Source: Sphagnum magellanicum
Taxonomy: Eukaryota; Streptophyta; Sphagnopsida; Sphagnales; Sphagnaceae
NCBI GenBank assembly: GCA_021904315.1
Contig: CM038911.1
Location: 23,595,390 to 23,659,389 of the forward strand
Length of the DNA: 64,000 nt
Direction of reading: 5' to 3'
Shown one piece after another: positions 4,001 through 59,940 of the stretch. Position 1 is the stretch's first letter, and each line of letters begins with the position of its first letter. Position numbers and translations under genes: made by a program. The notes below the pieces were generated by a model. The model saw nothing but the letters and a program-made list of their open reading frames with translations. It made no database searches and was not told where the DNA came from.

Positions 4001-5203
4001 TTAACATGTACAAGAAACCCCATAGCTCTTAGATGTATGATCAATCTTTGGAGATGGATGGAATTTCAAACCATCCAGAAAACTCAACCTCGAATCTATC
4101 TGATGGAAAGTGGTAAAGACCTCTAGACAATCTACCTCTTTGCCCATTCGGCTTTTGCCAATGTAACTCTTGCTTTTGATTTCAAGTCCTTTGTGGCCTT
4201 TGGTGGATTGGCCTATGTGGATGGGCATTTCCACTTCTGGAATAATCCAATTCATTGACCATGATACATCATTTTCTATGTTTAAACCTGGAGGCACCCA
4301 TTTTATACATGCCTTTTTCATGAAAACTTTGCGGTTGTGACGGTGTTTTGGAAGCTTGCCAATCGTCACTTGCATGGCTCCAATGTACATATGGCAACCT
4401 TTTGATTCACGTCTGAATCCCATCATAACTGCATCTACAACCTTGTAGGTTGTTGATAGTGGCACAGCCATGAACAAAGCTTCCTCTTTGCTACCTTTCA
4501 CAAACTCCATGTGAAGATCTTCCATTGTTGATTGTTCAGATCCACTTTCTAGCTCTAGCAATGTTGGACAAATATTCCTTGTCATATTTCCAAGTGGTAA
4601 AACTAAGGGGCGTTCTACAATAATCCCTACTATAGCTCTTTCCACTAATGCTCCCCCTATTACAGGAAACTTTCGACCATGCATCCCATACTCTCTTTTG
4701 ATGGTGTTTAAGCAAGTTGTGTCAAAAAATCTTGCATTTTGGTTGTATTTTTGGAGTTGACGAACCAATTCACTACCAACCAACCCACAAGACGGCTCAC
4801 CAACACCATTCGCAATTCGAAAATACCGGGTATCGATGTCATCTAGTGGCTTGATCATGGGCAATCCAAATAGGTATTTAGTGATACCATCAACGAATTT
4901 AGACAATTTTCCTTTCTCTTTTGCATTCTCAAATTGGTTCCCTATGTCATCTCTCATCTTTTCAAATGCAGGTTGCGCTTGCAAAACTTTCAAAGCAGAT
5001 TCAAACGAGACTTTTTCCCCTTTTGTCGTTTGTTGAATGGTCTCTTTGAGTGCATCATACCATGCTGACAAATACAATGGCAACCTTCCAGTTGCATCCA
5101 ATAATATTTGGATCTCCATCTCATCGAATAATTCTTTGGTTGTGTCACCATATGTCATGGAGCCCACAAATTTCCACTTGCTCCAACATTCCAATTCTTC
5201 ATC
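4001..5203 (-). CDS. CR (Crinkler/RHS-type) protein, last exon: NTPase lid plus endonuclease-like C-terminal domain
   Basis: An uninterrupted exon of about 400 codons ending at TAA (4001-4003). It begins at acceptor TCTAG|GATGAAGAA (intron ends at 5204), in the same phase (0) as the donor of the upstream exon. Residues 25-50 (TGRLPLYLS) match the lid of the CR NTPase. Residues 118-140 (DDIDTRYFRIANGVGEPSCG) match the hallmark linker of Crinkler/RHS proteins. Then GGALVERAIVG (E185), VPLSTTYKVVDAV (D254) and MYIGAMQVT (Q275, T277) follow the E...D...QxT layout of the restriction-endonuclease-like domain of this family. Known biology: CR proteins act as nuclear-targeted effectors or genome-conflict proteins in oomycetes, fungi, trypanosomes and other eukaryotes. 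A role in this plant is unknown. No stop or frameshift is seen, unlike the repeats around it. Confidence 0.75.
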   Translation of the reverse strand, partial: DEELECWSKWKFVGSMTYGDTTKELFDEMEIQILLDATGRLPLYLSAWYDALKETIQQTTKGEKVSFESALKVLQAQPAFEKMRDDIGNQFENAKEKGKLSKFVDGITKYLFGLPMIKPLDDIDTRYFRIANGVGEPSCGLVGSELVRQLQKYNQNARFFDTTCLNTIKREYGMHGRKFPVIGGALVERAIVGIIVERPLVLPLGNMTRNICPTLLELESGSEQSTMEDLHMEFVKGSKEEALFMAVPLSTTYKVVDAVMMGFRRESKGCHMYIGAMQVTIGKLPKHRHNRKVFMKKACIKWVPPGLNIENDVSWSMNWIIPEVEMPIHIGQSTKGHKGLEIKSKSYIGKSRMGKEVDCLEVFTTFHQIDSRLSFLDGLKFHPSPKIDHTSKSYGVSCTC

Positions 5204-5589
5204 CTAGACAATTGAACCTTATTATTGGTATTCTCGATAAGACATAATTCACTTGCATTAAAGATTTGTTATTAGACTTACAAGTGATCCTAACAAATTG
5301 GAAACAAATTAATGATATTGTCACAAAAACATACTCAATTATTCCACTAGTTTGTGTTAATATTAAATTCTGGTTTTTATTAAAGCATTTGACACCCATA
5401 AATGTATTTTTTACCAAAGACTTAACATGATGAGATATCCAAAAAAGGTTAATTTGGCAAAAACAATTCATGGTGGACATGCACTTGATGTTTAAAGTTT
5501 CATGGTTGAGATTCCACACATGGATATGAAATTTGTAAGATGTAACATGCACCTATGCCAACAGTCTAGTTGACAAGTCATGAACTAAC
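5204..5589 (-). other. Intron of the CR gene (386 bp, phase 0)
   Basis: On the minus strand the NTPase exon ends FEGFGVE-like at GAG|GTTAGT (last exon base 5590). The next exon starts after TCTAG at 5203. Both borders are GT-AG and the phases agree. The interior has stops in all frames and is AT-rich, as plant introns are. Confidence 0.65.
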
Positions 5590-6504
5590 CTCAAATCCTT
5601 CGTCCCACATAAAAAGTTTTGTCATTTGTCCTGAGCCAAGGATGTTTTTCCTTATAATATCGGAACTAATTATTGATGCAACTCTCACCATACAGTGATT
5701 GCAACAGATCCGCAACAGTAGGGATTTCAAAATGGTGTTTTCATCTTCTTCACCTTCCATGCACTCCCACTGATCTAATATCCAAAGAAGTTGAACTTCT
5801 GTGGATTCGCAAAACATAACTAGGTGATCCACATTTGCACATTTTCGTATTCTTTTAAGGCTTTGTTCATCATCCCCATAAGCAACAATTAAAGCATCTC
5901 GAAGCACAAGAAAGGCACGATCTTGTTGCAATAACCCACAATCCATTATTGATACTACTCGTTTCCTTGTCTGCCCAACTGCTGCTTGGTTATCAAAAAA
6001 CTCTTCCGTGAAATCAGAAACAGCAGCTGCCATCACATGGCTTTTTCCTGTTCCTACTGGACCAACTACAAGTACGTTTCCGATATTCTCACTATAATGA
6101 TTTGGGGATTTGATAGCTTCATAAGATGTACAATATGTTCGTTCCTTTTCCCTAACTAGTTGTAGGATTATATTTCTCAACTTTTGGTATCGCAACCTCC
6201 CCATGTAAGCAAAGCAACCATCTTTTGTGGCAAATCGATTATCAGTGGATGCCCACTTTGCAACTCCATATGCCATAGGAAGATTAAGTTCCATCCACTC
6301 TGGACATGACAATGGGTCTGTGGTTTTCATATGCTCACGTAGACTTGCCATGGAAGAGATCATGCTTTGGGGAAGTAATTTTGCCTTCTTGATGACTGCA
6401 CCCACTTCCCAAAATTGCTGTAACATTCCTTGATTGTTAGAAAATATCAATTCACACATCTTGAATAATTCCCCAATTACAAAGAAAGTTGTCACACCAT
6501 CCAT
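5590..6504 (-). CDS. CR (Crinkler/RHS-type) protein, P-loop NTPase exon
   Basis: A 305-codon open stretch from 6504 down to the donor at 5590. Residues 148-155 are a Walker A motif, GPVGTGKS, preceded by hydrophobic NVLVV. Residues 241-247 are WILDQWE, the DQx(N/E)-type Walker B seen in Crinkler and RHS proteins rather than the DE of most AAA ATPases. MVRVASIISSDI at 272-283 fits the sensor strand. With the next exon it forms a complete STAND/AAA-like NTPase. The ATG at 6504 need not be the gene start, since exons upstream on the same strand also look coding. An alternative start of this exon is acceptor TTCAAG|ATG at 6459. Frames are free of stops, so the gene may be active; transcription is not shown. 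Confidence 0.75.
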
Positions 6505-6607
6505 ATTGAGACTTCACTGATTTATTAAAAGTTCTGACCATAATAATTGGAATTATTGTTTATTACATATGAAGAATTGATTATTAATTCATCAAACTTG
6601 GGTCATT

Positions 6608-6720
6608 TCATCCCATTCCTCTTCTATGGTAGACATTGTGCAAAAATCTTGTTACAGTTTCAAGAAAACGTTTGTCAATACATTCATTTTGCATAGTGAT
6701 GATATTATAAATCAACTTAT
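6608..6720 (-). CDS. Possible middle exon of the CR gene
   Basis: The reading SYEIDKLIYNIITMQNECID then KRFLETVTRFL runs without a stop between the head exon and the NTPase exon and has the helical, charged look of real protein. A phase-1 link from donor GGAG|GTTGTT (6824/6823) to acceptor GATAG|ATAAG (6721/6720) keeps the frame. The 3' border is unsettled: GAAACT|GTAACA at 6656 joined to TTCAAG|ATG at 6459 keeps the frame but uses weak sites. No known domain was identified. Confidence 0.35.
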
Positions 6721-6823
6721 CTATCTCATAGCTTGAAACATCGGTGCACATAAAGGTCCAAAAATTGTGAATTTTTTTGTAAAATGATGAATATGGAATA
6801 TGATAAAAAGGATAAGTAACAAC

Positions 6824-7286
6824 CTCCATTATTGCTAGCAGCCTCCAAGTTCCGTTTTGTTGAACCTTGTTTATCTTGCATTTGTTTGTCTTCAGGTGAT
6901 TCCACACAAAATATAGGAAGAAGAAGTCTAAGTCTAAAAACATCAGTAGCCTTAGGGCTTCGATGTTCATGCCTCATAAACTCCTCTTGCAATGTGTAAC
7001 ATGGTTCAAGTCTTTGTTGCTCCCCCATGTGTAGCACATCAATGTGGTTGTGAAGGGCTTCAATATACATTTGTGTTCCAGAAAATAAATATTCTTCACG
7101 TTCCAACCCTAAACTTTTAATCAATTTTTTCTCTTTTAATCCAAGGAGTGTAAGAATATGATCTCGAGCTTCAAGGACTGTATGATCTGCTCTAAGATGT
7201 AAAATGCGCATCAATGTTTGTTTAATTGTTGGGATATAACATGAAACATAGATCTTCATCTCCATTGTGCATGGTGTTTGATTCAT
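6824..7286 (-). CDS. CR (Crinkler/RHS-type) protein, N-terminal head exon (possibly ubiquitin-like)
   Basis: Open from ATG at 7286 (in-frame TAA directly upstream) to a possible donor at 6824. The first 95 codons alternate strand and helix: MEMKIYVSCYIP, a turn, TLMRILHLRADHTVLEARDH, TLLGLKEKKL, EYLFSGTQMYIEAL and HIDVLHMGEQQRL. This order resembles a ubiquitin-like fold, and many CR proteins outside the oomycetes carry such a head before the NTPase, so the call is inferred from context as well as shape. The last part (about codons 125-155) is rich in charged residues and may be a linker. The ATG at 7265 (MEMKIYV) or 7259 could also be the start. If exons upstream belong to the gene, this start would be internal. 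Confidence 0.5.
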
Positions 7287-18478: not shown

Positions 18479-19270
18479 CTAGCCATAGTCGCATTTTTTT
18501 TTTAATGTAGTTTTGAATGGCTTAAAACATGAAACATTAAGGGGTTGGAATGCATGTGAAGTGTGTGAGGGTAAGGTTATCATGTTTAAACCAAAGGTCA
18601 TTGCTTGTTTTAGGGCTTTTAATGTAACATGTGATCCATGACCATCTAGAACTAATAAATGACGATTGGTTTGGGAAATCCCACTTGGAATAGAATCTTT
18701 GAAAATGAAAGGAATTCTTTGAACAAAAAACTTGTCATCCATGCTTTTGTTTGCATTGCCATACATGTTCTTGGTTTGCATTGTTGGATGTAATCGTCGT
18801 GTAATCGTTTTCCTTTGAATATGTAGAATCCCAATAAAACTGACCCAACAACATTAACAACATAATTTATCGTTACTTATTTGGTGGTAAAGGGTTGCCA
18901 AGTTGGAGTAAAAGGATTTGTAGGAGTCAATAATGAATCCTTGTGCTCTTAAGACTTTTAATCCTTCTATTTGTCTAATGCTTATGTTAGGTTGCCTTTT
19001 TTGGAACCATTTCCACCAAGAATTTCTTGGAACAACATCCTTGAATGGTGCTGGTTTTGTTTGTGTGATTTCTACAACCTTCAACTTGAATTGTTGTATG
19101 GTGATGGACAACCCCCATTCTTGCATAGCTAATGCCCATTCAACTATGGTTTTGTCTTCTTCCTTTGTTAACAAACATGTTGGTCCCATGTTACGATTCC
19201 TTGTTTTATCATTCAGATGATTGGATAAGGAAGTAAGTGGTGTCTCCCATGATTTGCACAAACAACACAT
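18479..19270 (-). pseudogene. pogo/Tigger-type transposase relic (Tc1/mariner superfamily)
   Basis: Minus strand. The frame at 19270-18854 has GPTCLLTKEEDKTIVEWALA, WGLSITIQQFKLKVVEI and WWKWFQKRQPNISIRQ, the CENP-B-type helix-turn-helix DNA-binding domain of pogo-like transposases. After a stop the reading continues in a second frame (about 18834-18690: FYIFKGKRLHDDY, ACMAMQ-like, KAWMTS). A third frame gives LLVLDGHGSHVTLKALKQAM and ITLPSHTSHAFQPLNVSCFK, the second-aspartate strand (DGHGSH) and the PPHTSHxxQPLD block of the DDE_1 catalytic core. At least one stop and one frameshift break it, and the C-terminus is missing. No terminal inverted repeats were found. Confidence 0.85.
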
Positions 19271-19299
19271 TATGGGATATTTGATTTGTGAAAGAAATG

Positions 19300-20340
19300 A
19301 CTACTGTCTTTTTTTACTACAATTGTAATTACTTAGTCATAAAAATCACTATGTAGTTATAAAGGTCATTGAGATGTCATGTGATGTCATGGTTTTGTAA
19401 CTATAGTTAGTATGATGACTAATGGGTTTTTTTGGATAAATATATTATTATTCTTGAAATCATAATAATATGCTTTAAATAAATTAAAATTAGTTGATTA
19501 AAAATACCCTAACTTTTGTGATTAAAATAACAACTTCTAATCTCACAATATGATGTGGCATTCCATGTGTACATTTGATTATTAATCAACATGATGATTC
19601 ATACATTATGTTGAATAAAATGATGCATTTATTGGTTAGTCACTATGTTAGAAATGATGTCCAATCCTTCAATGTAGTTCTTTGTGTCAATATACAAGTC
19701 CAAAAACTTTACCCTCACTACAATAAATCTTGTCTTTTGAACCAAACACAAAAATGACTATTATTTTTTCAATTACATTTATAACTATTTTGACATAAAA
19801 ATCACTAAGTAATGAAAAAAACATCAACATGCCACATGGCATCATGGTTTTGCAATTGTAGTCAATATGACAACTTGTTGATTTTTTTGGTAAATTATCA
19901 TATTATTTCTACATTTTTGTTCATTAATTAATTAGTTGCAAGAACCATCCACCTTTGCAATTAATAACTACTCAATCTCCCATAATGATGACATGGCATG
20001 CTATATGCCAACAAGATGATGTGGTCCTATTTGTTGACATCATGATTCATGTCATTGATTTGGTGAATTAATCTCATTTATTAGCTAGTTGAGAATATTA
20101 TTGTCCTCTCCGATTAATAACGAATCAGTCTTCCATGTGACAATGACATGACATGTCATTTGGCAACATGGTGTCATAAATTTGCATGGTAATCCATGAT
20201 TTTTTGTTACACCATAAATTTTTTTGTGTATTGAATTCACATCACCAATATTTATCATGACATGCCATTATTTTCTATGTGCCATGAAGTTTTTGAAGTC
20301 ATGAATTCACATGCATGTGTATGTGTATTAAACAATATAT
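19300..20340. repeat. Degenerate direct repeats of about 450 bp
   Basis: The block from 19301 (ACTACAATTGTAATTACTTA, ATCACTATGTAGTTATAA, GATGTCATGGTTTTG) is matched by a block from about 19752 (TCAATTACATTTATAACTA, ATCACTAAGTAATGAA, GGCATCATGGTTTTGCAATT), and a shorter third copy starts near 20095. All share ATGACATGGCAT-like words. They may be the subterminal part of a DNA transposon. Confidence 0.45.
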
Positions 20341-45496: not shown

Positions 45497-47086
45497 CACA
45501 CTCTTTGGCTCGTAGTACTTTGGAGTATAAGGGCATGTTGGAGTTCCAAAATGGGGACTAGAAAGAGTGATAGGTAAATCAATTACTCTCACGGACCTGC
45601 ACAAACCAAACAACAAGTTGATTAGTGCGTAGTTAGAGCATTTTTGTTGCATGAACGAGCCATGGGCAAACACGAACTCATAAGACTCACCACGGCCTGG
45701 ACTTGGGGGAAGCCACCACCTTCCCCCTTGTAGTATTATTTTTGCTTGGCCATGGGACTCTTATTGTTGCAACCCTACTTGGGAGAGTGTGAGGATGAGA
45801 CTCACACTCTCGAAATGGGGATTTGGGAGTCCTCTGGGACTCACAAAACTTCAGAGTTCGATTGCAGGGTTCAAAACACCTTGAATTTGGGTGTTCTTTC
45901 TATCATTGGAAATTTACTAAAATGTAAATGTCGAAAATGGCCTCACATGGGCCATTTGGACATCTTTAGCACAAGTTATGGCAAAAAGAAGAGCCAGGAG
46001 TCAAACTGGCAGTTTGACACCCGACCACTAAAAGTTGGGAATCAACCCAACCCCGATGCGTGCAGATGAAGTGCGACACACCGTTGGAAAGCTCTCAAGG
46101 AAAGCTACAAGTTTGTTTTAGACCTCATCCCAATCGAAGGTCTGAGCAAATAGTTATGATTGGTCAAAGTCTCGGGAGTCCAAACCAGGACAGTTTCGGG
46201 ACTCCTCCTTGGGAGTCCCAGGACAAAAAGCCATTTGAATGTGGGTGCCGCGGAGAAACACAAAGTATACTATATGGGGGAAGGTGGTGGTTTCCTTTGA
46301 GTTTGGGCCGTGGTGAATCAAGTGAGTCCAGAGTTGCCCATGGCTTGTCCTAGCACCAAGGGCGTTCTAGAATGTGAACTAACCAACTTGTTGGTTGGTT
46401 TGATGCAAGTTCAAGTAAGTGAATAGCTTGTCACTCTTCTTAGTCCCATCCCGGAGCTTTAGCATGCCCCTCTACCCCTTTTAGTGCTAAGAGCTGGGAG
46501 CATGCCTTGAGTCCCCAATAATTTTGCAACTTGAGTAACTTAGGCCCAACTTGGGGTTAACTAGGGACCTGAGAGTGCGTCACTTGCAACTTTGGAGACC
46601 CATAACTTTGTGTACAGACCTCCAATTGAGATGAGGTCCAAATCAAAGTTGTAACCCTTGTCAAAATCTTTTCAACAGTATGTGGCATGCCACCTGAACA
46701 CAAGGAAATTAGGGCGATTCTTGACTTTTAGTGGTCGGGAGTCAAATTGGCAATTTGACTCCCGACCCCTCTTTTGGCCATAACGTATGTTTTAAGTGCC
46801 CAAATGGGTTATGCGAGTTAATGTCTACATTCTAAGAGATTTCCAATGGTATAAGGAACTCTTCAATCCAATGAGTTTTGACCCCTACAATCGCCCTCTG
46901 AAAATTTGGGAGTTTATTGAGATTCTAACTCCCAAAATGGGAGCTCACTTGGGAGTGTGAGGGTTCATTCCCTCACACTTTCTTACATTCATGGGAGCAT
47001 GAAATGTGATTCCCAAGCTTCATTTTTGGCCCGCACCTTTGCCAACCTTTGTTTTGGTCATGAGCCCAAGGTTAGGGTTGCGATAA
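45497..47086 (-). mobile_element. Older LTR family A copy, inverted, split by a younger copy
   Basis: The reverse complement runs from 47086 (TCGCAACCCTAACCTTGGG) to 46579, then resumes at 45764 (AGAGTCCC, GGGGGAAGGTGGTGGCTTCC, GCCGTGGTGAGTC) and continues to about 45497. The two parts follow each other in the LTR order, so one LTR was interrupted by the insertion at 45765-46578. Confidence 0.7.
45765..46578 (+). mobile_element. Solo LTR, family A (814 bp), inserted into an inverted older copy
   Basis: It starts TGTTGCAACCCTACTTGGG and ends GAGTGCGTCA, the same ends as the 23543 copy. The flanks are CTTAT (45760-45764) and CTTGC (46579-46583), which fit a 5-bp target duplication with two transitions. 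It carries the family's GGAGTCC-rich body throughout (GGGACTCCTCCTTGGGAGTC, CTATATGGGGGAAGGTGG). Confidence 0.75.
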
Positions 47087-47468
47087 TTTTATGGAGAAGA
47101 TTAGTTCACATGCAGCTTCAATGATTTTTTTTTTAAAAAAAAAACCTTAAATTAGCTTTGAAGTTAGAATGGATAGGTTTCATAAAATTTAGAATTACAA
47201 ACTTGAAAATCTATAGTTAAACAATTTGAATTTAACCCCCAAACTAATGGGTTTTAATTTTCAAAAATATTCTTTAGATTTAGAGATCTAAAAATTTGTC
47301 CATTAAAAAAGGAAAAAAATTAAAAATAGACTTGATGATTATTTTAAACACCAACAACCGACTAGCATTGGTTTTTAATGTCATTCGCTTACAACCATCG
47401 ATGTCATCACACATACAACACATAACGTAAAAATATATTAAATGGTACACCACATCCAAACGACAAAA
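47087..47468. other. Gene-free spacer
   Basis: AT-rich DNA between the LTR family A copies and the left direct repeat of the large Ty3/gypsy relic. Nothing recognised. Confidence 0.4.
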
Positions 47469-47757
47469 TGTGATTCACTTGCAACAAGTAGGAATTTAAA
47501 CCCAAAACATAGAAGTAACAAAAATCATAAATCAAATAATATTACATAACACAAGAAAAATTTGTAAACAAACAAACATTATGCCTTGGAATTTCAAATC
47601 ACCAAATGTAATTTGAGTTCACACAACTTGGGCATTATATCCCATGACAAAATATTTCAAATTCTATTCACACATGAATTGATCAAGATAAAACTAATAA
47701 ACTTAGCTAACCAATTTATCTTTAATTAAGTGGGATTTAACCAAATAGTTAAACACA
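47469..47757 (-). repeat. Left copy of the repeat flanking the Ty3/gypsy relic (LTR-like)
   Basis: The 289 bp from TGTGATTCACTTGCAACAAG to AACACA match 56416-56708 in the same orientation (CCCAAAACATAGAAGTRACA, AACAAACAAACA, ACAAAATATTTCAAA). The ends fit TG...CA. No PPT or PBS is clear, and the outer 5-bp flanks do not match, so this may be part of an LTR or of the internal region. Confidence 0.5.
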
Positions 47758-47829
47758 CTAGATTAAACTAACATTATGATCTGGCAATGCCATCAACTCC
47801 AACCACTTAGAGAAATGTTTGATCATAAC

Positions 47830-48120
47830 AAAAATATATTAGTTATGTTGAGGTGTCAAACTCAATGGATTGGCAAAATCCAAACTCCATTGGTAACCAA
47901 GTCCCATAATCAATAAAGGCTATAGGTGAGGTATAGGTGCATTGAAAGATGTTTGAACTTGGTCACACACCATACATCTAAAAACAAATTGTTGAACTTG
48001 TAACAACATCCCTTGCCATTAATATTATGTTTGGAGCAAGTTATATATGTTTATTGGACCCCAAAATGGCCCAACTCTTCATGAACATGCCTTATAAGGT
48101 TCTCATGTTGTTCTGGGTGA
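47830..48120 (-). pseudogene. Integrase H2C2 zinc domain, truncated
   Basis: The minus strand reads ELGHFGVQ, then QQFVFRCMVCDQVQTSFNAP (frame shifted) and IMGLGYQWSLDFANPLSLTP. This is the HHCC zinc domain of a Ty3/gypsy integrase followed by the first residues of the catalytic core, where the leading D sits in SLDFA. The core stops there, close to the LTR-like repeat at 47757, so most of the integrase is deleted. Confidence 0.75.
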
Positions 48121-48287
48121 GGCACAACATGCACTTGTCCATCTACCCACACCCATAGGAAGGAATTACCTTCCCATTTGAATCACTTGGCCCTGTGCAC
48201 AACATGGTCTCATTCCTTAGGTATTAATCTAATCAAAACTTCACCTACTTGCAAATATGCAATGACAAAGGCATCATCATAAATGTC

Positions 48288-48704
48288 TCAGGCACCATTG
48301 CCCTCCACCTCCATGTCTGCATCATGGGAATCCCCATCATCCACACTAGTTTGATATAAATCCCCAAAACACCCCAATAAGGTACAAAAATATGCAAAGG
48401 CATGCCATCTTAGTACTATTTCCAAATCCACCTCACCTTGCCAACAAATCCTAGTGGTATCCTTTTCATTGGAACTTGGGTTTTGACTCAACCCATTGGC
48501 ATCTCAATTAACCCTACTAGGGCCTATGAACTATGTCAAAGTCATATTCCTATAGGATAAGTGCCCACCTGGCCAACTTTCTTATGAATCAATTTGATTT
48601 CATAAGGAATTTCAAAGGTTGGTGATCAGTAACCAAAATGAATGGGCTACCATAAAGATAACATCAAAATGATGAAACAACCCAAACAACTACAAGGCAT
48701 TCCC
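48288..48704 (-). pseudogene. RNase H, second part (after the inserted element), and spacer
   Basis: Reading resumes at ECLVVVW, then CYLYGSPFILVTDHQPLKFL (the DxH block of gypsy RNase H), KLARWALIL, EYDFDIVHR, and a spacer with NPSSNEKDTTRICWQGEVDL before the integrase. Several stops are present. The left end continues directly from the part that ends at 50892. Confidence 0.75.
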
Positions 48705-50886
48705 TTTCACACTTGAATACGCCTTGGCGTCATTTCATTGTCGCTTTCGTTCCACTTTCGTGCCTTCCTAAACACCTATGCCACCTGCACATGGAAAATC
48801 ACACACTTGGTGAAGCTTTAACATTTAGATTTACCTTGCAACCTTGGGTTATTCCCGACCTCTGGATGGGTGGGATTAAAACCCGCTATGGATTTCCTTA
48901 GTGGTCCAAAGCTTTGTTGCTTGGGAATACCATCTCTCATCTTTCGATGTAACCATAAACTTCAACTAGTTTGAGGACTTTGTGCATTGAGGCTAACACC
49001 TTGTGCCCCCTTCCTCAAACCCTCATTCATTAGCATGTATGTGGCTTGTGAGTCTGTCAAACCGGGAATCAAACCTAGCCCAACACTTAGACTCATAACC
49101 TAAATTGTTGTGGGGGCTAGTCCATGGTGATCTAGACCTGGGCTTCAACTAGGTGAACCCCCACACTTGAACGTCCGTCTAGAAAGGCATGTCACTTTCC
49201 CCCACTTTAGAGATGTCAACGTCCTCATTGATATTTCTTTGAAATGTTCACCTTTGATGTTTTCGCCAATTTCTTTTTGAACCCCTTTGGTGCGATTAGT
49301 TACTTCCCGATCAAAAGAGCCCATTTGCAATGTGTCTTTGTGTTCTTAGCATATGAGATTTTACCATATGTGTCTTTTATTTTCACCCAATGCGTTCACT
49401 TGGCGTTTTCCTCAAATCCCCTTCATTCGACCACTCTTATTTGTCTTGAGAGTCCATTTCAAGTTTTAGTTTAGGAATTCCAACCACCACGCCAAACAAA
49501 GGTTATTAACATGCCAACATATGACGTTGGACTAGGCTTTACATGGTCCAAATCGCCTTTACCCAAATGGGACATGATTTGTGAATTCATGCGCAAGAAG
49601 TTTAGCTTCTTCACTCAAGTGTGCCACTTTATTCGCACACACCACCACCTTGATCTCGCCTGATCAAGCTTTGAAGTTTTTTGAATTCAATTCAACTCCA
49701 AGTCCATTTCTGTTGGTTGCCATTCCCTTGCTTTCTTAAACTACTTCTTCCTTTGTGAACCTTAGTTTTTTCCGTAGCTAACCACATTTGCAAAAATCCT
49801 TAACCTTCACTTGGTGAAAGTAGTTAGTTTTGTGGGTGCTTTCCTCCATTTTAGAGGTTGATGTCCTCATCAACATTTAGGCCAGTTGTAGTTTTTTTCT
49901 TCCAAGTTCTCTTCACTCCAAGTTCATGACCCCTTTCCTAATCAAACTTGTTTACCATTTTTGGTAAGTGGTCCAAAAGAACAGGTTTCATCCACATTAC
50001 CTCCTTATGATGGTAACCCTTATATTTACCAAGTACTCCTTGCCTCTAAGGTGTGTCTGCCTTGCATGGAATATGCCTTTGATTTTGATGGCAAGCCTAT
50101 GTTCAATGGCGTCACCTTTTGGTTGCACTCTTTGCTTCCGGTCTAGCCTTTGTTTATCAGGTAGAAACAATTTAAGTTTCGACACATGGAAGGTTAGATG
50201 TGCCACAAAATTAACTAGCAATTTTAGGGTGTACATGTTGGGATGTAGCTTATGGAAAATTTTGTAAGGCTTCACATACTTGGTAATGAAACGTGGAGCT
50301 AGTCCATCAAGCATCTTTAAATCTTGGATGTTTAGCCACATGTGTTGCCCAACCTCAAACTCAATATGTTTTTGTGTTTTATTAGCATGTTTAAATACCA
50401 TTTTTCACACCCAAATACGCCTTGGTGGCATTCCACCATCGCTTTCATTCCATTCTCGTGCCTTCCTAAACATCTACACTACTTGCACATGGAAAACCAT
50501 GCATTTGGTGAAGCTTCAACATTCAAACTTATCTCACAACCTTGGGCTATTTTTGATCTTTAGATAGGTGGGACTAAAACCCATTACGAACTTCCTAAGT
50601 GGTCTAAGGCCTTGTCACTTAAGATTACCATTTCTTGTCTTTCGGTCTAATTGTAAACTTCGTTCAATTTGAAAACTTAGCCAACAGCAACACCTCAAGT
50701 TGCCTTTTTCAAACCTTCACTTGTTAACACTTATGTAACGCATGAATGTCAAACCAAAAGTTGAACCTGGCTCAACACTTAGACTCGTAACCCAAGCTAC
50801 CATGGGGGCTGCCCCATGGTGGTCTATACTTGGACCCCGACTAGCTAAGCCCCCACACTTCAAGGTTCACCTAGAAGGGCATGCCA
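48705..50886 (-). mobile_element. Internally deleted chromodomain Ty3/gypsy element, inserted in the RNase H of the larger relic
   Basis: Two direct repeats, 48705-49194 and 50403-50886, about 485-490 bp each, start with a decayed TGTCACACCC (TTTCACAC...) and end GGCATG(T/C)CA. They share ATACGCCTTGG, TTCCTAAACA, GCACATGGAAAA, AACACTTAGACTC and CCCCCACACTT words. The flanks TTCCC (48700-48704) and CTCCC (50887-50891) are a 5-bp target duplication with one transition. The interior is only 1.2 kb and keeps just the end of an integrase. A solo LTR of the same family lies inverted at 60653-61150. Confidence 0.8.
49997..50401 (-). pseudogene. Integrase C-terminus with chromodomain-like tail (Ty3/gypsy chromovirus type)
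   Basis: A 134-codon frame reads EFEVGQHMWLNIQDLKMLDG, LAPRFITKYVKPYKIFHKL, LTFHVSKLKLFLPD, and then IKGIFHARQTHLRGKEYLV. These match the GPY/F region (the YVKPYKI strand) and the start of the chromodomain of plant chromovirus integrases, which directs insertion by binding chromatin. It begins at the border with the right LTR, so the rest of pol is deleted. The tail after EYLV is out of frame or lost. Confidence 0.8.
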
Positions 50887-50891
50887 CTCCC

Positions 50892-51180
50892 CTTCATATG
50901 AGTTTTATTTGGTTTCCATCTTGTTATTAAACCAACTGGCATATGCCACCACAAGTTTTTAGTCCCAGTGTCATCAAGTTGAATAAACATAGCTCCCGAC
51001 CCTATAGTGTTCCAATTAGTGTGTAATTGGAACAATTATCCTTGAATGGGTCACTTCAAAATGGGAGCTAATGAAAGCTTATCCTTCAATTCTTAAAAGG
51101 CATGATCTTATGCCTTGTCCCAAATGAATTTTTGGTCAATCTATGTTTGATGGATTAAAGGTTTAGTTACGTTATTGAAG
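50892..51180 (-). pseudogene. RNase H, first part
   Basis: The minus strand reads KDKLSLAPILKWPI, then FQLHTNWNTIGSGAMFIQLD, LWWHMPV-like (VVAYAS in an adjacent frame) and SYEGE, up to the target duplication at 50887-50891. The first acidic residue of the catalytic set (HTD) reads HTN here. The rest of the domain continues at 48704. Confidence 0.75.
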
Positions 51181-52000
51181 CCTTTCATAAACCTTTGGTA
51201 GTAATTGCACAAGCTTATAAAAGGTCGTAATCGACTGAGATTTGTTAGTTCCAAAGAACTTGTGAAATGGTCTCAACCTTGGCCTTTTGAACCCTTAATC
51301 CACCTAGAGAAATCATATGACCTAGGTATTCCATTTGAATATGAAAAAACCAACACTTGCTTGGATGAAACTTAAAGTTATGTTCTTTAAATCTTCCAAA
51401 CACCTCCTACAAATGATGCATGTGATTTCCTAAGGTCAGCCTAGAAACAATGATGTCATCAATGTAACATTTGCTAAAACCAAGGCCTATCAACTTTCAA
51501 ACCATGATTCTTTGAAATTCTACAAAGACATATTTCAAACCAAATGGCAAAACCTTCCATTGGTATAAATAATCCTTCCAAAGAAAATCAATTCCCCAAA
51601 ATGTTATTTTAACCTTGTCACCCTTTCTCAATGGCAATTGATATATGGTAGTCGGACCTCAAGTCCAAGGTATTGAAAACCTTGGCTTGACCAAAGGCAT
51701 TGAAAATCTCCTTTGGTAGAGGCATGACATATTTGTTTAAATGGGTCCATTTATTCACCAAACAGTAATCCCCACATAACGACATTTAATTCAATTACCA
51801 AAAATGTCCTACTTGGTTGGCATCATTGTTGTTGAAGCATATTCACCCCTAAATAATTCCACCAAACCAACATTTAACAACTCTATTGTTTGAACATGAA
51901 CCAAGGCTCTTTCCACCTCACTAAGCTTGTAAGGTTGCTTGAAGATTGGATTATCATGCTCGAATATGATTGAATGTCTTGTCCCCTTAATTGACCCAAT
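51180..52000 (-). pseudogene. Ty3/gypsy reverse transcriptase
   Basis: The minus strand contains, in order, HDNPIFKQPYKLSEVE, a CG(V)YR-like block, HLNKYVMPLPKEIFNAFGQA, KVFNTLDLRSDYHISIAIEK (motif A, LDLRSxYH), KVLPFGLKYVFVEFQRIMV (motif B, LPFGLxxAPxxFQ), CYIDDIIV (motif C, the YxDD catalytic pair) and HPSKCWFFHIQMEYLGHMIS (motifs D/E). Several stops and frame changes interrupt it. The order is that of Ty3/gypsy pol. It follows the methyltransferase segment with about 400 bp between. Confidence 0.85.
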
Positions 52001-52439
52001 TCCTTCAAACTAAAGGTAAAACATCCAATGAAATCATGTAGTAACTGTTGTGCTTCATGCACCTCACCTCTTGTAACTATTGGGCTAATCCTTGGGTCCC
52101 ATGTTTATGTAGTCATTTGTACCTTGGGTTGGGATGATGGGGCATTCCTAGCACCCAAGGTTAAGAGCATGGCTTGTGATTGTTATGCAAAATGTGGAGA
52201 GGTGCCATTATCTCTTGGCACCCCCACATCACCAATTTCATACCCATAAATATCCTTTGGCATCCTTAATCCCACAATTGCCATGGATGTAATTGTTCGA
52301 TTGTAACATCACCCCCCCTTGCATCAACATAAATGATTCAACAAGATGTGCAACAAGTAAAAGATGAAGTGGAATGGGTGGGTGCAATTGGTCAAAACAA
52401 TTTTGTTCTACAAAAACCAAAACTCAAAATCCATGTGAG

Positions 52440-53390
52440 GCAATTGAAATCCATATGGCATAACTTGCCCCAAAATTCATTTATGGGTTCTTTCGAAAAT
52501 GCCTTGCACAGTTGTGGTGCAAGTGCAAAACCCCATGGCCCGTTCTTTTTCATCTACATTGGGTTTTTCCATATTGGATGAATAGGAATCCCAAATCATC
52601 CCTAGGCTTCCATTTTTAAATGCATGAGAATGTGAAAAACTCAATAATGTTGGTAGAGGTGCATGTGGAAGACTAACCCTATTAACCATAGCCAAAGGTG
52701 GTTGGTCATCATGACAAACTGCACATGAATGACATCCTAGATCCAATATGTCTTCCACCAAGCATGTGGGTGACCTATGAGTGAGTTGGTATGCTTGTTG
52801 GGTCACCTCTAGTGGTTTATGTTAATCCAAATGCATTGAAATCGATGAATTCATGAACCAATTGAAACATCATCCACCTACATTGGCTTATTGATCCAAG
52901 CCCTAATTTTTTCCATCCAACCAAAATAGTTAGCCAAAAATTTCCCAATGGGGGGACATTTTACAATAAGTATGCACATTGGTGCAGTTATGTCTATTGC
53001 AAATATTACACCACATGAATCAATTCTTAGAATAAACTCAACTTGGGATCTAAAAGTCCTTGGCTCGTACCTACTTGTGAAAGACCTTGGCACAACCATT
53101 TAAAAATGACCAATTCAATTGGCCCAATCTTGATAAAATTTGGCACCCCTAGCAAGGTGATGTTGTTTGGTAAGGAATGTTAATAACCTTGTATAGTCAA
53201 TGTTGGCAACAAGTTGAAATACTTTTGTTGCAACATCATGACATGTAACATGGACAATTGTCTAGCTTGAGAATCTTTTTTCACATAATGGTATCTTTGA
53301 ACTAGAATGCAAGACTATAAAATTGTAACTAATCTAGATTTAATGCCTCTAAACAATTGAAATAAGCATATTTCATCCTTGGGAATATCC
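52440..53390 (-). pseudogene. Cytosine-C5 DNA methyltransferase domain inside the Ty3/gypsy polyprotein
   Basis: The minus strand reads the C5-methyltransferase motifs in canonical order, with stops. Motif I is LFQLFRGIKSRL (about 53378-53330; consensus ELFxGIGxGL). VQRYHYVKKDSQARQ fits motif II. IGPIELVIFKWLCQGLSQVG (about 53130-53070) is motif IV, where PCQ reads LCQ; S-L-F follows. Motif VI, ENV, is NVPPLGNFW with the E codon as TAA (52933-52962). The frame at 52806-52477 adds RSPTCLVEDILDLG and KERAMGFCTCTTTVQG (motif IX region), and ILGQVMPYGFQL matches motif X. Such domains are known in a few retrotransposon lineages. DRM-type enzymes have a different, permuted order, so this is not a DRM copy. 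The copy is inactive. Confidence 0.75.
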
Positions 53391-53479
53391 CATTGAATAA
53401 CCCTAGTATCTAATGGGCTAAAACCTAAAGGCCCATTACCAACGTTCATGAGTGACTATGGGTTTGGTGACAACAAATT

Positions 53480-54600
53480 GTGCCAAGCTTAATGAATGTA
53501 GGGATTGGTTGATGCTTGGAGTTCAATCAATGTACCCCATGGTGGCTTGGGATCCAACGAAGAAATTAAAACAATTGGCATCCCTTTTAGCCTTAACATC
53601 GCCAATTCACCATTTGGAGGTGCATCATGGTCATGGATGTTACCTTCCAACAATTCAAGTCCATGTGGAAGGCTAGAAAATCCAACCAACATAATTGATT
53701 TTTTAGATTTTTTTGCTTGCCCCCCAATGAATCTCACTGGTAATGAAGCCTTGTGACTAACTCTTGTTTGTTAACTTAAGCAGTATTATTCAATTTCTTC
53801 CCAAAAATTAATGGTAACCCCCAAGGGATACAAAACCACACCTCCAATGAACACATCATAGGACATAACATGTGTGACCACTATTTGGGCCCGCATTGTA
53901 ATGAAGTTTGTTGGTTTGTTAGGATTAACTTGTATCATAATTTTTTGTTTGGTTAATTTGTGTGCCTTTTCTAACCCACCCATTGATGTCAAAATCTAAT
54001 ATAGACATGGGCCAAGATCAACATCAGTCAACCAAGACCATCAACAACAACTTTGCCCAACATTAATGGTTGAACATTACAATCCAATAGCACTTTGTGG
54101 GGTTAGTATCAAAGAGCTAATGCCCCCCTCAACCAAAAAAATATTTCTTCATTATGCCCATTCACAACACCAAGAATAACACTAGTTCAATCAATGGCTA
54201 GCCATGCTCGAAGGTCATGAAATTTGGCCACAATCTCATGCCAAAATTCAAGTTGAACCTTGGACATCTTCGTGGTGAGGTTAACCTCAAAAATTGGATG
54301 GGAAACTATAGGAGGTACAAAAAATATCCTTTGATTTAAACACCACATCTAGTGCTCCACCACTTTCACATAAGTTGGCTACTAAGCGAAACAAGGTCGC
54401 AACTAGTTGAATACCTAAAATGGCCATTTTTAAAATAAAAAACAATGTTGTTTCACACACTACTTTGGTTGCCCCCAATAAAACTATGGGTGCATTAAAT
54501 CTAGGAATAAAATTAGGCACCTTCCTTGATGCCCCACTAGAAGTCAACACCCCCATGGGATTAAAAATGATGTCTATCAACATAAATGACTATGGGAGCC
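53480..54600 (-). pseudogene. Protease region and linker of the Ty3/gypsy relic
   Basis: Frames at 53992-53786 (QVNPNKPTNFITMRAQIVVT, VMSYDVFIGGVVLYPLGVTI) and 53737-53489 (RFIGGQAKKSKKSIMLVGFS, LPHGLELLEGNIHDHDAPPN) form a continuous conserved-looking linker that leads into the methyltransferase. The aspartic protease DSGAS site was not found with confidence upstream (54583-54287). The position between gag and pol suggests protease, but this is inference. Confidence 0.5.
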
Positions 54601-55179
54601 ACACTTGGCGTTAGGCCTCACCATGTTGAGGATCCAATCTCTCATCAACACCTCATGGTTTTGGCACCCATGCACTAGTTCTTATCATTAGTGCAATTGT
54701 GGAAATCATTTCATTAGGATTTAAAACCATAACATGGTTCCATCATCTATTGCCCATGACATATGTGGCACAGCCTCATTTGGTGCCACTAATCTTGAAA
54801 AACCAAATCTATAAAAAAATCCTAGATCAACATTTAAACCATATGGTTTGCCATCTTCTCAATCATTGGCCTTCCTTGACTAGATTTATTCGATTTCACA
54901 TGGGGTGCCATCTTATGACTAGGGCTTCCAACTATGCAAACCTACTTTCATGGTGTTGGGTTTGCTTTAAGTTGGTTTGGTGGTCGACCCCTTGTTGCCC
55001 ACACCTTTCCCCTTGTGGCTTTTTAAAAAACCTTGACCCATACTGGCATTGGTGTTTTGTGATTAGCCTTGTCGTACTTTTGGGTGAAGTGTGAAACAAT
55101 GATAAACATCATGCCCATATGCATTGCAATGGAAACATGGCTAGTTAAGATTAGGGTTGAAGGTTATGGCTTGAGGTGG

Positions 55180-56290
55180 ATTAAGATAGTCTTTATTCTT
55201 ATGAAGTCCACTGCACCTCCAACATTTGTCTTCTCCCCCTTGTTTCATTGAATAGGATGTGGAACCACCATTAAAATTTGGTTTGACCCCCTTGGCCTCA
55301 AGGATGGTTCAACCTTGGTTGGTTGACCTTGTGATTGTTGAATAAATGGTGCTATAGAATTCCTTAGGGTTTCCTCGTTAAACCCCAAGGTGACCATGAC
55401 TTGTTTTTCCACCATGTTCATTTCAATTCTTTCTAACAATTGGAAAACATTTGCCAAAGTGGGTTGGGTAGGTTAGGATAACATGGCATCTTGCGCCCAA
55501 CACTTAAGCTCCTTGTTTAAGATCCCATAACAAATTGGATTGCTTGGGTTTTTGTAACACCTTATGTAACCATGATCAACCTATGCATCTGTTCATAGGC
55601 CTTTTGTAAGCTTTCATGGAGTTTATGTAAAAAATCCTACAAACTTTGTAATTTTTCAATTCTAACCCTTTAATAATTTTGCCACAATTCATTGAAGAAT
55701 TGCACAATTGGGTTAAATGCGGGCAATGAACCCCACGTACTAGTGCATGCCTCTGCACCACCACCCCCAATAGTTCCACTGCTTCCAATGGTTCCATTAC
55801 CACTAATAATTTTGCTTCCACTTGCCAAATATTGTTGGGAGTTATCGTTGCATCACTTGGGGCCATAATTCCCTTGATGATAGAAACATAATTCAAAGAT
55901 TAGTATAATCATCATTCCTCAATATGAATATCATGGGCACATCTAAATTCATGATAGTCATCCATAAACAACCTTTCCAAATGTTGGAACAACTTTCCAT
56001 GGCATGAAGGGTGTGAACAGTTGGGGATTATGCATCTACTACATATCACACCAACTATCAAATTCTTAAATGAAATCATCTAGCTCAATGGTGCCAACAA
56101 CCTTTGAATATTGACAGGGCTTTTTAATGGCTTCATACATGTCATCCATGTCATCAAACTTAATGGTGAACCTAGGTTTGAATTTGAAGAATTTCCCCTA
56201 GATGATGATGAAAGTGGTGTGGGTGGTCTAAACCACATCACCCCATGATTGGCTAGTAACAATGTTTTTATCCCTTGAATCTTGTGTCAC
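55180..56290 (-). pseudogene. gag of the Ty3/gypsy relic with a CCHC zinc knuckle
   Basis: From 56260 the minus strand reads SSSSRGNSSNSNLGSPLSL, a serine-rich N-terminus. Around 55700 it reads RVRIEKLQSL, DFLHKLHESLQKAYEQMHRL, the capsid-type helix of Retrotrans_gag. Around 55460-55250 it reads LERIEMNMVEKQV and QGQPTKVEPSLRPRG. A zinc knuckle CWRCSGLHKNKDY at about 55230-55180 fits CX2CX4HX4C with the last C as Y. Stops and frameshifts are frequent. Confidence 0.65.
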
Positions 56291-56415
56291 CTTTGTGATG
56301 AACCTTAAACCCTAATTTGGGTATCCACCTTTAAAATCCAATCACAAAAGGATGCTACATTTGTGATGACTCAAATTAAATCTACAAGGATGTTGAACCT
56401 ATTGATGATTCAAAA

Positions 56416-56708
56416 TGTGATTCACTTGCAACAAGTAAGAATCCAAGCCCAAAACATAGAAGTGACAAAAATTATGAATCAAATAAAACTACATAGTAGA
56501 AGAAAAACCTACAAACAAACAAACACTATGTTTTAAAATCCTAGACCACCAAAATTGATTTGAAATCACACAACTTGAAGTTATATCCATTACAAAATAT
56601 TTCAAACCTTGTTCACACTCAAACTAGTTCAAAATAAAACTAATCAACTTAACTAACCCAATTTATTTCTAACAAAATGAGACTTAAATAAGCAACTAAA
56701 TTAACACA
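56416..56708 (-). repeat. Right copy of the repeat flanking the Ty3/gypsy relic (LTR-like)
   Basis: The 293 bp match 47469-47757 in the same direction, starting TGTGATTCACTTGCAACAAG. For a minus-strand element this would be the 5' LTR. A tRNA primer-binding site next to it was not recognised. Confidence 0.5.
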
Positions 56709-56719
56709 CTTGACATTAG

Positions 56720-57040
56720 TTTCTACCCTACCCTGAAAGTCAACAATCATATTAGGGCAGGTTTAAGGACAAAATCATTTCATATGCATTTGCATATTTT
56801 TACAATGTGTAAACAATTATCTTTTTATTTCTCTATGTGCTTTGACGGATCTCCCCAAGAGAAGAGCATTATGCTGAAGGAGATCTTTCATTTTATTCTT
56901 CTATGTTCTCACGTTCGCATAAAAAGAAAGTTGTTTACATGTGTGGAGGTTTTTGTATTCCTGGGTTCTCCCAGGGTTTGGGAACACCCTCTGTCTCACA
57001 CCTTTAGGAGAACCCACTTGTGCATGAACCTCCCGTACAA
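56720..57040. other. Spacer without recognised gene
   Basis: The frame at 56784-57182 crosses into the inverted repeat and shows no domain. Composition is less AT-rich than the retrotransposon to the left. Confidence 0.3.
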
Positions 57041-57048
57041 CATTATGC

Positions 57049-57417
57049 GGAAAACATTAAACAGGCCAAAGGAAATGAATGCAGTCAGTACAAAAGTGCA
57101 GCTGCGATTTTTTCCTCCAGTCTGCCCGTTTGCCCCATCCTTATTTTCTCAAGTGACATGCAGGCATGTTTTGCACTCATAACCTCATATAATACAGCAT
57201 GTTTTGCACTTGTAACCTCATATAACATGCCAAGTAATATGTTACATACCCCTTTATACCCCTCGTGTGTTCATAGCGTGCGGAACTCGGACTCAAAATA
57301 TGCCTTGGCATGACAAGGTGAAAATAAACCAGGCAAATGGGCAGACTGGAGGAAAAAATCGCAGCAGTACTTTTATACTGACTGCATTCATTTCCTTTGG
57401 CCTGTTTAATATTTTCC
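57049..57417. repeat. Long inverted repeat, 86-bp arms at about 94% identity
   Basis: Left arm 57049-57134 (GGAAAACATTAAACAGGCCA...) and right arm 57332-57417 pair with five mismatches and no gaps. Weaker pairing continues inward for about 30 bp. The loop holds two 33-bp tandem units (57167-57199 and 57200-57232, TGTTTTGCACT...TAACCTCATATAA). It could be a MITE or foldback element, or give a hairpin RNA. Confidence 0.85.
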
Positions 57418-59940
57418 CTCTTCTGCACCCTTAATCCCACATTTACCTGATTACATCCATGGAATAAATGGTTGCCATAGGATTTTTGCACTTACCCAGA
57501 TGGATAACTTTGCAAATCCTATGTACCTTTACCTTGACCTGGATTGCAATTTCTAATGATATATATAGCATACACCTTTACGTGGCTGATGTAAGTTTCA
57601 AGAGTTTAACGTTTAGCCCAACCAACACACGAAATTCAACATACCCACCACCCGACACAGGTGTGGACTGTGCACATGTATCAGTCAGTTCCTGTGTCAC
57701 TAGGGTACTCACTACTTTTTTTCCTTCCTTTTTCAGCCCTCCTCTCTACTTTAACACGAATCAGTTACCTAAGCACATGGTTAGTGATTGATGGGTCCTT
57801 AAGGTACACGTTTTACAGCAAACAGGCTGCTGACTCAGAAAAAAAAAGGGGGTCCATTCTTCAGAGAAAAGAAGGGATACCTTTTACTTCCAGTTCATCA
57901 AAACCTTGCAAAATTTTATTTACAAACACACCACCAATTCGAAAAATGTACAAAGGTTTTTAAAAACGTGAGAGAATTTAAAGGACGTGAAGTTAAGCCC
58001 AACTATCTCCATGTTTAGGTTTGGCTTCCTTCTGAGGTTTCTGAGGGAAAACAATTTCACAGATCCCAGTTTTTTTGATAGAGTAGATAGAGGCATTCTA
58101 ATATGAGGCTGGAAGTATCCATTTGATCCATTGTGACTCACCTAAATCCCTGGGTCTGATCTTGGATTTCCCACATTTCCACACAAATGGCTTCTTTCAA
58201 AATATGAAAGAGGTGAACAAAAAGATCTTCAAAATTTAAACCATTTTATATATTTATTTGATGTATTGCATTGGCCAACCAAGCAGTACCACCGAATGAG
58301 AGAAAACTCCTTGTAAACCTAAAGGCTCTGTAGCTACTAGCTAGGATTTGAAAAAAAAATGATTAGAGGGAGGAATTGAGAATTAATTAAATAGGTAACT
58401 TCTCAAATCTCTTCTCTCGAAGGGGGTTAGAGAATTACCATAGTTACAATAACTATTTGAAACATTGTTATATTAGAAAAATGAAGAAATGAATTTGTGT
58501 GGATGCAAAATAATTAGGTGTGATCATTCTTTTCAGCAAATTTTGTCACTTTATTGGACAAAAATTGAAATTTTTTGAGAATTTTTTCTAGTTTAAATTG
58601 TAATAATTTTTCTTTTTTTGTTGAAATGGTTATTTTTTCGATATCACAAAATTGAATGTGAAGAAAAAATAAAAATAGCCCTGACTAGGACCCAACTAGA
58701 CAGCGTCAGACATTGTAACTTATTGGCTGGCCTTAATTGGGAGTACTACAGAAATTAATTAAGGGGAAAGATACAGTGAATTAATGAATAAATTTCTTCT
58801 GGAATGACAAAAGTGAAGGTTTGGTCCATTCAACACTTGTGCACAAATTATATAAGTAGTTGGTTCCAATAAAAAGATATTTAGTGCTGCACAGAATTGA
58901 ATTAAAATTAGTATAGAATTGGGGGACCATTGCATGGGAAGAATCAAGGACGACTCTTTATTAACGTTCCAAATTAAATCGTCAATTCCTTCTGCCTTGG
59001 GATGCACCCAAATCTGACACATTACGTTAGGCCAATTCTTTACGCCTGAATATCAGTTTTTGGCTTTTATCAATTTGTTTTCCGAGAATTTCTTTTTCTG
59101 GTTCTCAAGCGGCGGCGGGCCTAAGATGACATATTTTACTAAAAGTGGCCGCTTTCCGATGTCCATGTCCCTGGCGTGGACTACAAGGGTCTTTCTTTCC
59201 CTATAGGCACTAGGGGAACACACATCATTCAGTCGCACTTTAATCTGATTTTTATTAACCCCCTAAACACCTCATAAACCAAAAATGATAGAGATTTTAT
59301 ATCAATAGCAATCTAGGTTCGGCAACTTGATATCCTGTGTGCTTCACTCTCTTGGGTGGTTCATTTGTCTTCTTGGATGTGGGTCCTTCCATTTTGCTCC
59401 TTGTTTCCCCTTATTTTGGGCGCCCTGGTTAATTTATGGTTGGTAGGATTTCATAAACTGAATTCTTTTCCAAACTTTCTTTGTTGGGCCGTGTGGAGTG
59501 TGATCACAGGCCTCAAAACATATGATGACTGGAGAATGCCATGTCAATTTTTTTGGGGGAGAACTTGGGGCGTGGGGCTAGGGGGTGGGGCATGCAATCA
59601 CTTCTCAAAGGTAAGAACCAGCCAACCACATGTTGTTAGGTTTTAACATATGTTGCACCTATATGAGATGAGAGGAGGTAGGTAGGAAAGGATACAATAC
59701 ACCACTTGCTTCGTGCTACTGTTGATGAGTTTACGTCCTATGGTACTTGGTTTCTCCTCTTTGGGCTTCCCATTGTGTGTTTTGTGCTTTTGAGTTTTGT
59801 TTTTTGTTTGGAACTTTGATCCTTTCTTTTTTCTTCCTTGTTCCCTTGTTGGGTGTTATCTATTTTTATTAAGTGTTACATTCTTCATCATGGTTTTGAG
59901 TGTGGTCTACTAGAGTTATTGATGGTTTTATGTAGGAGAT
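57418..59940. other. Stretch without recognised gene
   Basis: Short frames on both strands (57468-57963, 58759-59022, 59356-59646) have no known domain. The interval 58200-58900 is AT-rich. Confidence 0.35.

Follow-up and report, generated by a model that had tools for sequence, protein, structure and literature searches.

Does a retrotransposon of a land plant carry its own cytosine DNA methyltransferase, and what would such an enzyme do for the element? The question is raised by a stretch of 64,000 nucleotides from the moss Sphagnum magellanicum (assembly GCA_021904315.1, contig CM038911.1, positions 23,595,390 to 23,659,389), which is called the window here. An initial annotation, made from the letters alone, placed a C5-methyltransferase at 52440-53390 of the window, inside a Ty3/gypsy retrotransposon whose present copy it took to be dead. 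The minus-strand relic, which runs from ~56.7 kb to 47.4 kb, is a single old copy of a Ty3/gypsy long terminal repeat (LTR) retrotransposon, and its many stops and frame changes make it a dead one. The segment between its protease and its reverse transcriptase (RT) is, with near certainty, a C5-methyltransferase domain that belongs inside this Ty3/gypsy family. A fuller reading takes the relic as an old, dead copy of a family with a DNMT3-type methyltransferase between protease and RT, in which stop-codon readthrough and methylation of the element's own cDNA would explain the arrangement; this joint reading is given a probability of about 0.55.

Methyltransferase motifs and their relatives

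The domain occupies about 53377-52401 on the minus strand, and the interval first proposed for it was correct to ~50 bases. Its C5-methyltransferase motifs stand in the canonical order that had been described for them, scattered across three frames with many stops: a motif I-like stretch (LFQLFRGIKSRLV), KWLCQGLS for motif IV, NVPPLG for motif VI, IHRF as a motif VIII-like stretch, ERAMGF for motif IX, and LGQVM for motif X. Motif X has the tail DFNCLTWIL, which, like the motif VIII-like stretch, is read in another frame than its neighbours. The alignment row of the relic keeps the motif order and the catalytic cysteine, with XNV in place of ENV and a degraded motif VIII.

A search with the frame pieces of the relic gave seven proteins at E<=0.01 among 402 candidates, with a best E of 3.6e-71. 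The methyltransferase profile PF00145 is present in P0006 only (1.3e-10), the other six being without a methyltransferase profile, and among the same seven NCBIfam showed a methyltransferase model in P0006 only (TIGR00675, 45.7 bits, below the cut-off of 100.65). When P0006 and the Marchantia polyprotein P0030 were used as further queries, 46 and at least 65 proteins, respectively, were obtained in overlapping sets; the latter is a lower bound, as the best 8000 candidates by shared words were scored. Across the searches, at least 93 relatives (P0002-P0094) were found. Of the 46 proteins of the P0006 search, 41 have a precomputed PF00145, which was also found in all six polyproteins scanned and is above the cut-off in P0062, in P0083, and in the first open reading frame (ORF1) of L005, a 9285-base contig that by its content is a eukaryotic LTR-type element. 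Scans of IMG/VR gave the partial matches L001-L004, which are taken as unrelated viral methyltransferases, and the other scans gave none; PADLOC gave generic methyltransferase matches only.

Motif counts and tblastn searches of the window were made with 69 of the 93 relatives' domains, those below 300 aa being left out. All 69 match the window at E<=1e-3 and do so within 52300-53600 only, where all 154 high-scoring segment pairs at this threshold fall (best E=9.6e-59). The best E was 3.9e-4 over 20 Markov-shuffled windows and 0.015 in the reversed window, and chance motif matches are rejected by these controls. The catalytic cysteine is kept in 68 of the 69 domains, with a gap in P0055, and both motif VIII arginines are likewise kept in 68; ENV is found in 57, as is the LG of motif X. 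Over 300 pairs from 25 elements, the mean identity is 0.41 for the methyltransferase vs 0.42 for the integrase, so that the methyltransferase diverges at about the pace of the integrase, less than the protease and more than the RT-RNase H part.

These relatives also bear on the origin of the segment. That a retrocopy or fragment of a host DNMT3 gene landed in this gypsy relic, without being part of the family, is exceedingly improbable: the domain follows the protease in proteins of Marchantia, Calypogeia, Sphagnum, and Closterium and in L005, and in the tree the relic stands among liverwort elements. Such related copies already refute an independent host insertion. The initial view of the segment as a methyltransferase within a gypsy element is thus upheld by related proteins that carry the domain in the same place, and by an LTR-bounded copy in which it lies between protease and RT.

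Judged by its sequence, the methyltransferase is DNMT3-like with unpermuted motifs. In a structure-database comparison, DNMT3 is the closest class among solved methyltransferases, and the catalytic domains of animal DNMT3A and DNMT3B show ~26% identity to the element domain in the structure alignment. Unlike the element domain, the animal enzymes are products of host genes with PWWP and ADD domains (PMC12344493). Plant DRM enzymes have weaker homology to the element domain, with chains named DRM2 at E=1.3e-6. In addition, 4onj, which is listed as 'DNA methyltransferase' and which we take to be a DRM, matches at 5e-10. In the best-aligned stretch, the C-terminal part of the DRM chain pairs with the motif I to IV block of the element, as expected of a rearranged order. 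A DRM origin is rejected, since the motif order is canonical in the element and rearranged in DRM; the earlier claim that canonical order sets this enzyme apart from DRM is borne out by the motif alignment and the structure-database comparison.

Structure, carriers and layouts of the element

On the minus strand, the relic has the order LTR, gag, protease, methyltransferase, RT, RNase H, integrase, and LTR, the parts between the LTRs having been located by tblastn with Marchantia, Sphagnum, and L005 proteins. The 5' LTR (56411-56713) and the 3' LTR (47464-47762), both with approximate ends, are direct-repeat partners with 240 of 294 aligned bases identical. The gag remnant at 54988-56149 is matched by residues 1-384 of P0030 (E=5e-43) and also by the Sphagnum protein P0067, and the protease region with its upstream flank, at approximately 53783-54288, by P0030 from residue 572 onward and by P0062. 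Beyond the methyltransferase, which was found with the relatives' domains, comes the RT remnant at 51257-52104 (PF00078, E=1.5e-11; second open reading frame, ORF2, of L005, E=3e-71). It is followed by the RT connection and RNase H start at 50887-51245 (L005 ORF2 residues 308-426), the remaining RNase H at 48523-48708 (residues 424-485, 61% identity), and the integrase remnant, without its C-terminal part, at 47764-48512 (residues 489-730). RT thus precedes integrase, gag and protease lie upstream, and long terminal repeats flank the whole, as in Ty3/gypsy elements.

RNase H is split by a nested insertion of LTR type at 48705-50892, also on the minus strand, with direct repeats of its own at 48705-49202 and 50403-50892 (362 of 488 aligned bases, or 74%, identical) and an SH3_Tf2-1 match (E=9e-9) inside it at 49997-50401 of the minus strand. 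For a target-site duplication, primer-binding site, or polypurine tract, nothing clear was seen by eye in the flanks of this decayed copy. A PHD finger was not found in the relic (best E=2.3), and a promoter and terminator scan of 47000-57500 gave nothing informative, the DNA being eukaryotic.

Just outside the 5' LTR is an 86-base inverted repeat (57049-57134 and 57332-57417) that is 94% complementary with its arms 197 bases apart. Farther away, three long open frames of 400, 311, and 186 aa lie on the minus strand at 4001-7286; the middle one matches an AAA ATPase weakly and below the cut-off (E=4e-4), and the frames are possibly a broken host gene. An open frame at 18857-19300, minus strand, has a weak match to a Tc5-type transposase DNA-binding domain (E=0.0036, below cut-off). 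The 64-kb window gave no Rfam match at the gathering score and no tRNA.

Better preserved relatives occur in liverworts and other green plants. Among the matches listed, 19 of the at least 93 relatives have an organism name (15 Marchantia polymorpha, two Calypogeia fissa, one Sphagnum fallax, and one Closterium sp.), and all 19 are streptophytes. The main tree has 66 rows, five of them unlabelled; P0083, P0084, P0085, and P0088 were left out as long branches, and P0002, P0003, and P0005 are not part of it. In this tree, the relic falls in an 11-row set with seven Marchantia, one Calypogeia, and two further proteins (support 99/95), and this grouping with liverwort elements supports the land-plant lineage that had been proposed. 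In a larger quick tree, built from the 69 domains, seven shorter ones, and the relic, the relic clusters with P0002, P0003, and P0005 (100) inside an 18-row set that includes the Sphagnum protein (97). The exact place of the relic within the land set is unsure because of its long end branch (1.29) and odd letter make-up in the main tree.

Among members whose domains can be put in order, the family has two layouts. In clade A, the methyltransferase comes after the protease, as in the relic, and before RT where RT is seen; in clade B, it lies between RNase H and integrase. Most clade A rows have the protease upstream, and RT is seen downstream in a few (P0031, P0055, P0070, P0075, and P0078). 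Of the 23 clade B rows in the main tree, 18 have RT or RNase H upstream, and P0038, P0040, P0053, P0073, and P0079 are labelled from the downstream integrase only. A PHD finger stands behind the integrase in 18 of these 23 rows and also in L005, which belongs to clade A. Members with the clade B layout and a PHD finger, including P0039, P0041, P0048, P0071, P0074, P0082, and others, have two chromatin-related modules per element. In P0083 and P0092, which group with clade A on the RT tree, the methyltransferase opens a protein that continues with RT, RNase H, integrase, and PHD.

One branch splits the two layouts both in the methyltransferase tree (99/99; 66 rows) and in the RT-RNase H tree (100/99; 20 rows), and it is unchanged (99) in the quick tree that retains the four long-branched proteins. 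Such a split, together with the different positions in the polyprotein, makes two independent captures of a DNMT3-like gene, one by clade A and one by clade B elements, a serious possibility, if somewhat short of even odds. The same congruence, however, also fits one capture followed by relocation, and the motif wording common to both clades and the PHD finger after the integrase in both (L005 in one, clade B rows in the other) argue against two captures.

Leaky-stop context and a proposed mechanism

How the methyltransferase is expressed can be followed best in L005. This contig has a 127-base repeat at both ends, which is read as the assembly overlap of a repeated element. A genome collection assigns it to an uncultured Synechococcales metagenome-assembled genome, and it is probably mis-binned eukaryotic DNA. 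Of its two long open frames, ORF1 (gag-protease-methyltransferase) ends with TAG after the methyltransferase, and ORF2 (RT-RNase H-integrase with a C-terminal PHD finger) lies in the same frame. The junction reads AAG-TAG-CAA-TCA, with TAG-CAA-TCA at L005 3489-3497, and no other of the 299 stop triplets on that strand has CARYYA behind it. UAG-CAR-YYA is the readthrough motif of the tobamovirus type (PMC3542737), and the L005 junction between in-frame ORFs matches, at the level of sequence, this type I motif. In the relic, TAA-CAA-TCA is found at 52177-52185 of the minus strand, within the gap where the relatives' gag-protease-methyltransferase frame ends. It is the only stop with CARYYA among 10 stop triplets in 52300-52080 (13 of 7965 window-wide), and the RT remnant that starts at 52104 shares its frame, one more stop intervening, all of which is suggestive only. 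The distance from motif X to the protein end, measured in 22 of 23 clade A proteins, is 72-183 residues in 21 and 30 in P0032, these protein ends being putative ORF1 stops. The methyltransferase had been assigned to pol at first; its place within the element stands, but in L005 the domain ends the gag-protease frame, upstream of the leaky-type stop.

From these observations (the domain, its place in the element, the catalytic motifs of the relatives, the named streptophyte carriers, and, in one element with open frames, the leaky-stop context), the following mechanism is proposed. The main translation product would be Gag-protease-methyltransferase, and a minority of ribosomes would pass the leaky stop and extend the product by RT, RNase H, and integrase (in L005 also by a C-terminal PHD finger). 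Made at the level of Gag, the methyltransferase may then enter the virus-like particle, where it would mark the new double-stranded cDNA before or at integration. A wider and more tentative scenario, which is possible without being probable, is that a DNMT3-bearing Ty3/gypsy lineage persisted from streptophyte algae into land plants, that the leaky stop makes Gag-protease-methyltransferase its main product, and that particles with many enzyme copies mark the cDNA ahead of its insertion into chosen chromatin by an integrase with a PHD finger; the element would then set its own epigenetic state on arrival.

On the other hand, pol might be expressed by splicing, reinitiation, or frameshift in elements with the methyltransferase before RT, the TAG-CAATCA being coincidental. 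The Marchantia gene models P0031, P0055, P0059, and P0062 join methyltransferase and RT in one protein, and P0070 and P0078 also hold both in one protein. However, the joins in Marchantia may stem from introns that gene prediction forced, and the exact UAG-CARYYA at the L005 junction (one of 299 stop triplets), with ORF2 in the same frame, makes another route unlikely.

The target of the enzyme could also differ from the one proposed. Instead of the element's own cDNA, it might methylate host DNA or invading DNA, for instance to restrain the element through silencing of its sister copies or to ward off viruses. Slowed retrotransposition has been offered as one option (PMC5890265), and anti-viral roles have been proposed for transposon-borne methylases (PMC6338049). 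The latter paper's argument that land plants lost such elements as large DNA viruses became rare is, however, undercut by the liverwort and Sphagnum copies, and neither target is supported by evidence in this analysis; such targets are judged unlikely as well.

Several results weigh against the preferred reading of a DNMT3-type enzyme that is made by way of a leaky stop and methylates cDNA. The initial annotation had looked to PF00145 for confirmation, which pieces of the relic did not give (E=0.29, 11 bits vs a 22-bit cut-off). The clean 109-aa ORF and the C-terminal half of the relic domain have no Pfam match. Against the PDB, the N-terminal half matches an unrelated receptor best (E=0.26), DNMT3B coming next at E=1.1, and the C-terminal half matched nothing relevant. 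As the relic pieces have no significant profile match, the methyltransferase case rests on the relatives; among these, the Sphagnum protein P0067 has no methyltransferase match in Pfam, and 12 of 69 domains lack ENV, as 12 lack the LG of motif X. Moreover, a Gag-level dosage of the enzyme is not universal because its position in clade B is between RNase H and integrase, and readthrough is drawn from one element and the decayed TAA of the relic because the DNA of only one open-frame relative is readable. Lastly, the gypsy-borne KnitGypsy-Dnmt3 of Klebsormidium nitens gave no methylation in yeast, a result that its authors regard as inconclusive (PMC5890265). This outcome and the lack of ENV in 12 of the 69 domains would suit a domain that serves the polyprotein structurally or by binding nucleic acid and transfers no methyl groups, a reading held to be distinctly improbable. 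A precedent for activity is given by the SymbioDIRS-Dnmt3 enzymes, which methylated CG in yeast, de novo CG methylation being shown for these DIRS enzymes (PMC5890265).

Known systems and meaning for bryophyte elements

Some DNMT3s are known to reside in retrotransposons (PMC12344493). The precedent for capture in algae and dinoflagellates, which had been mentioned at the outset, matches de Mendoza et al. 2018, who describe Dnmt3 within elements of dinoflagellates and within a gypsy element of Klebsormidium (PMC5890265). KnitGypsy-Dnmt3 resembles the relic family in having an unrearranged, Dnmt3-class methyltransferase in an LTR Gypsy polyprotein, and it is reported to be without introns and under purifying selection (PMC5890265), the two being compared by description. 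It differs in coming from a streptophyte alga and in having its domain placed in the Pol ORF; the relic's place in the tree is among liverwort elements, and L005 has the domain before a leaky-type stop. SymbioDIRS-Dnmt3 of dinoflagellates is likewise a retrotransposon-borne Dnmt3, but the DIRS class is another type of element (PMC5890265). The kind of element is therefore already known, since a Klebsormidium gypsy element with Dnmt3 has been published.

In contrast, an opinion article states that land plants, for example tracheophytes, lack transposons of this kind (PMC6338049), and the wide form of this statement is contradicted by the Marchantia, Calypogeia, and Sphagnum proteins. No description of methyltransferase-carrying gypsy elements in bryophytes was found in the literature searched (few subscription papers, no preprints or supplements), including the available parts of PMC12344493, PMC6453930, PMC9516144, and PMC9985172. 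As far as this search goes, the land-plant occurrence, the two layouts, and a leaky-stop arrangement that would place the methyltransferase on the Gag product are new.

The finding also carries a warning, as some annotated bryophyte 'DNA (cytosine-5)' enzyme genes are pieces of transposons (P0057, by its source name). The Marchantia gene models P0030, P0057, and P0062 are retrotransposon pieces that may mislead surveys of DNMT genes. Because Marchantia polymorpha can be transformed and serves as a model plant, self-methylation of retrotransposon cDNA is directly testable there, as is the question of why selfish DNA would carry the very mark that hosts use for silencing it.
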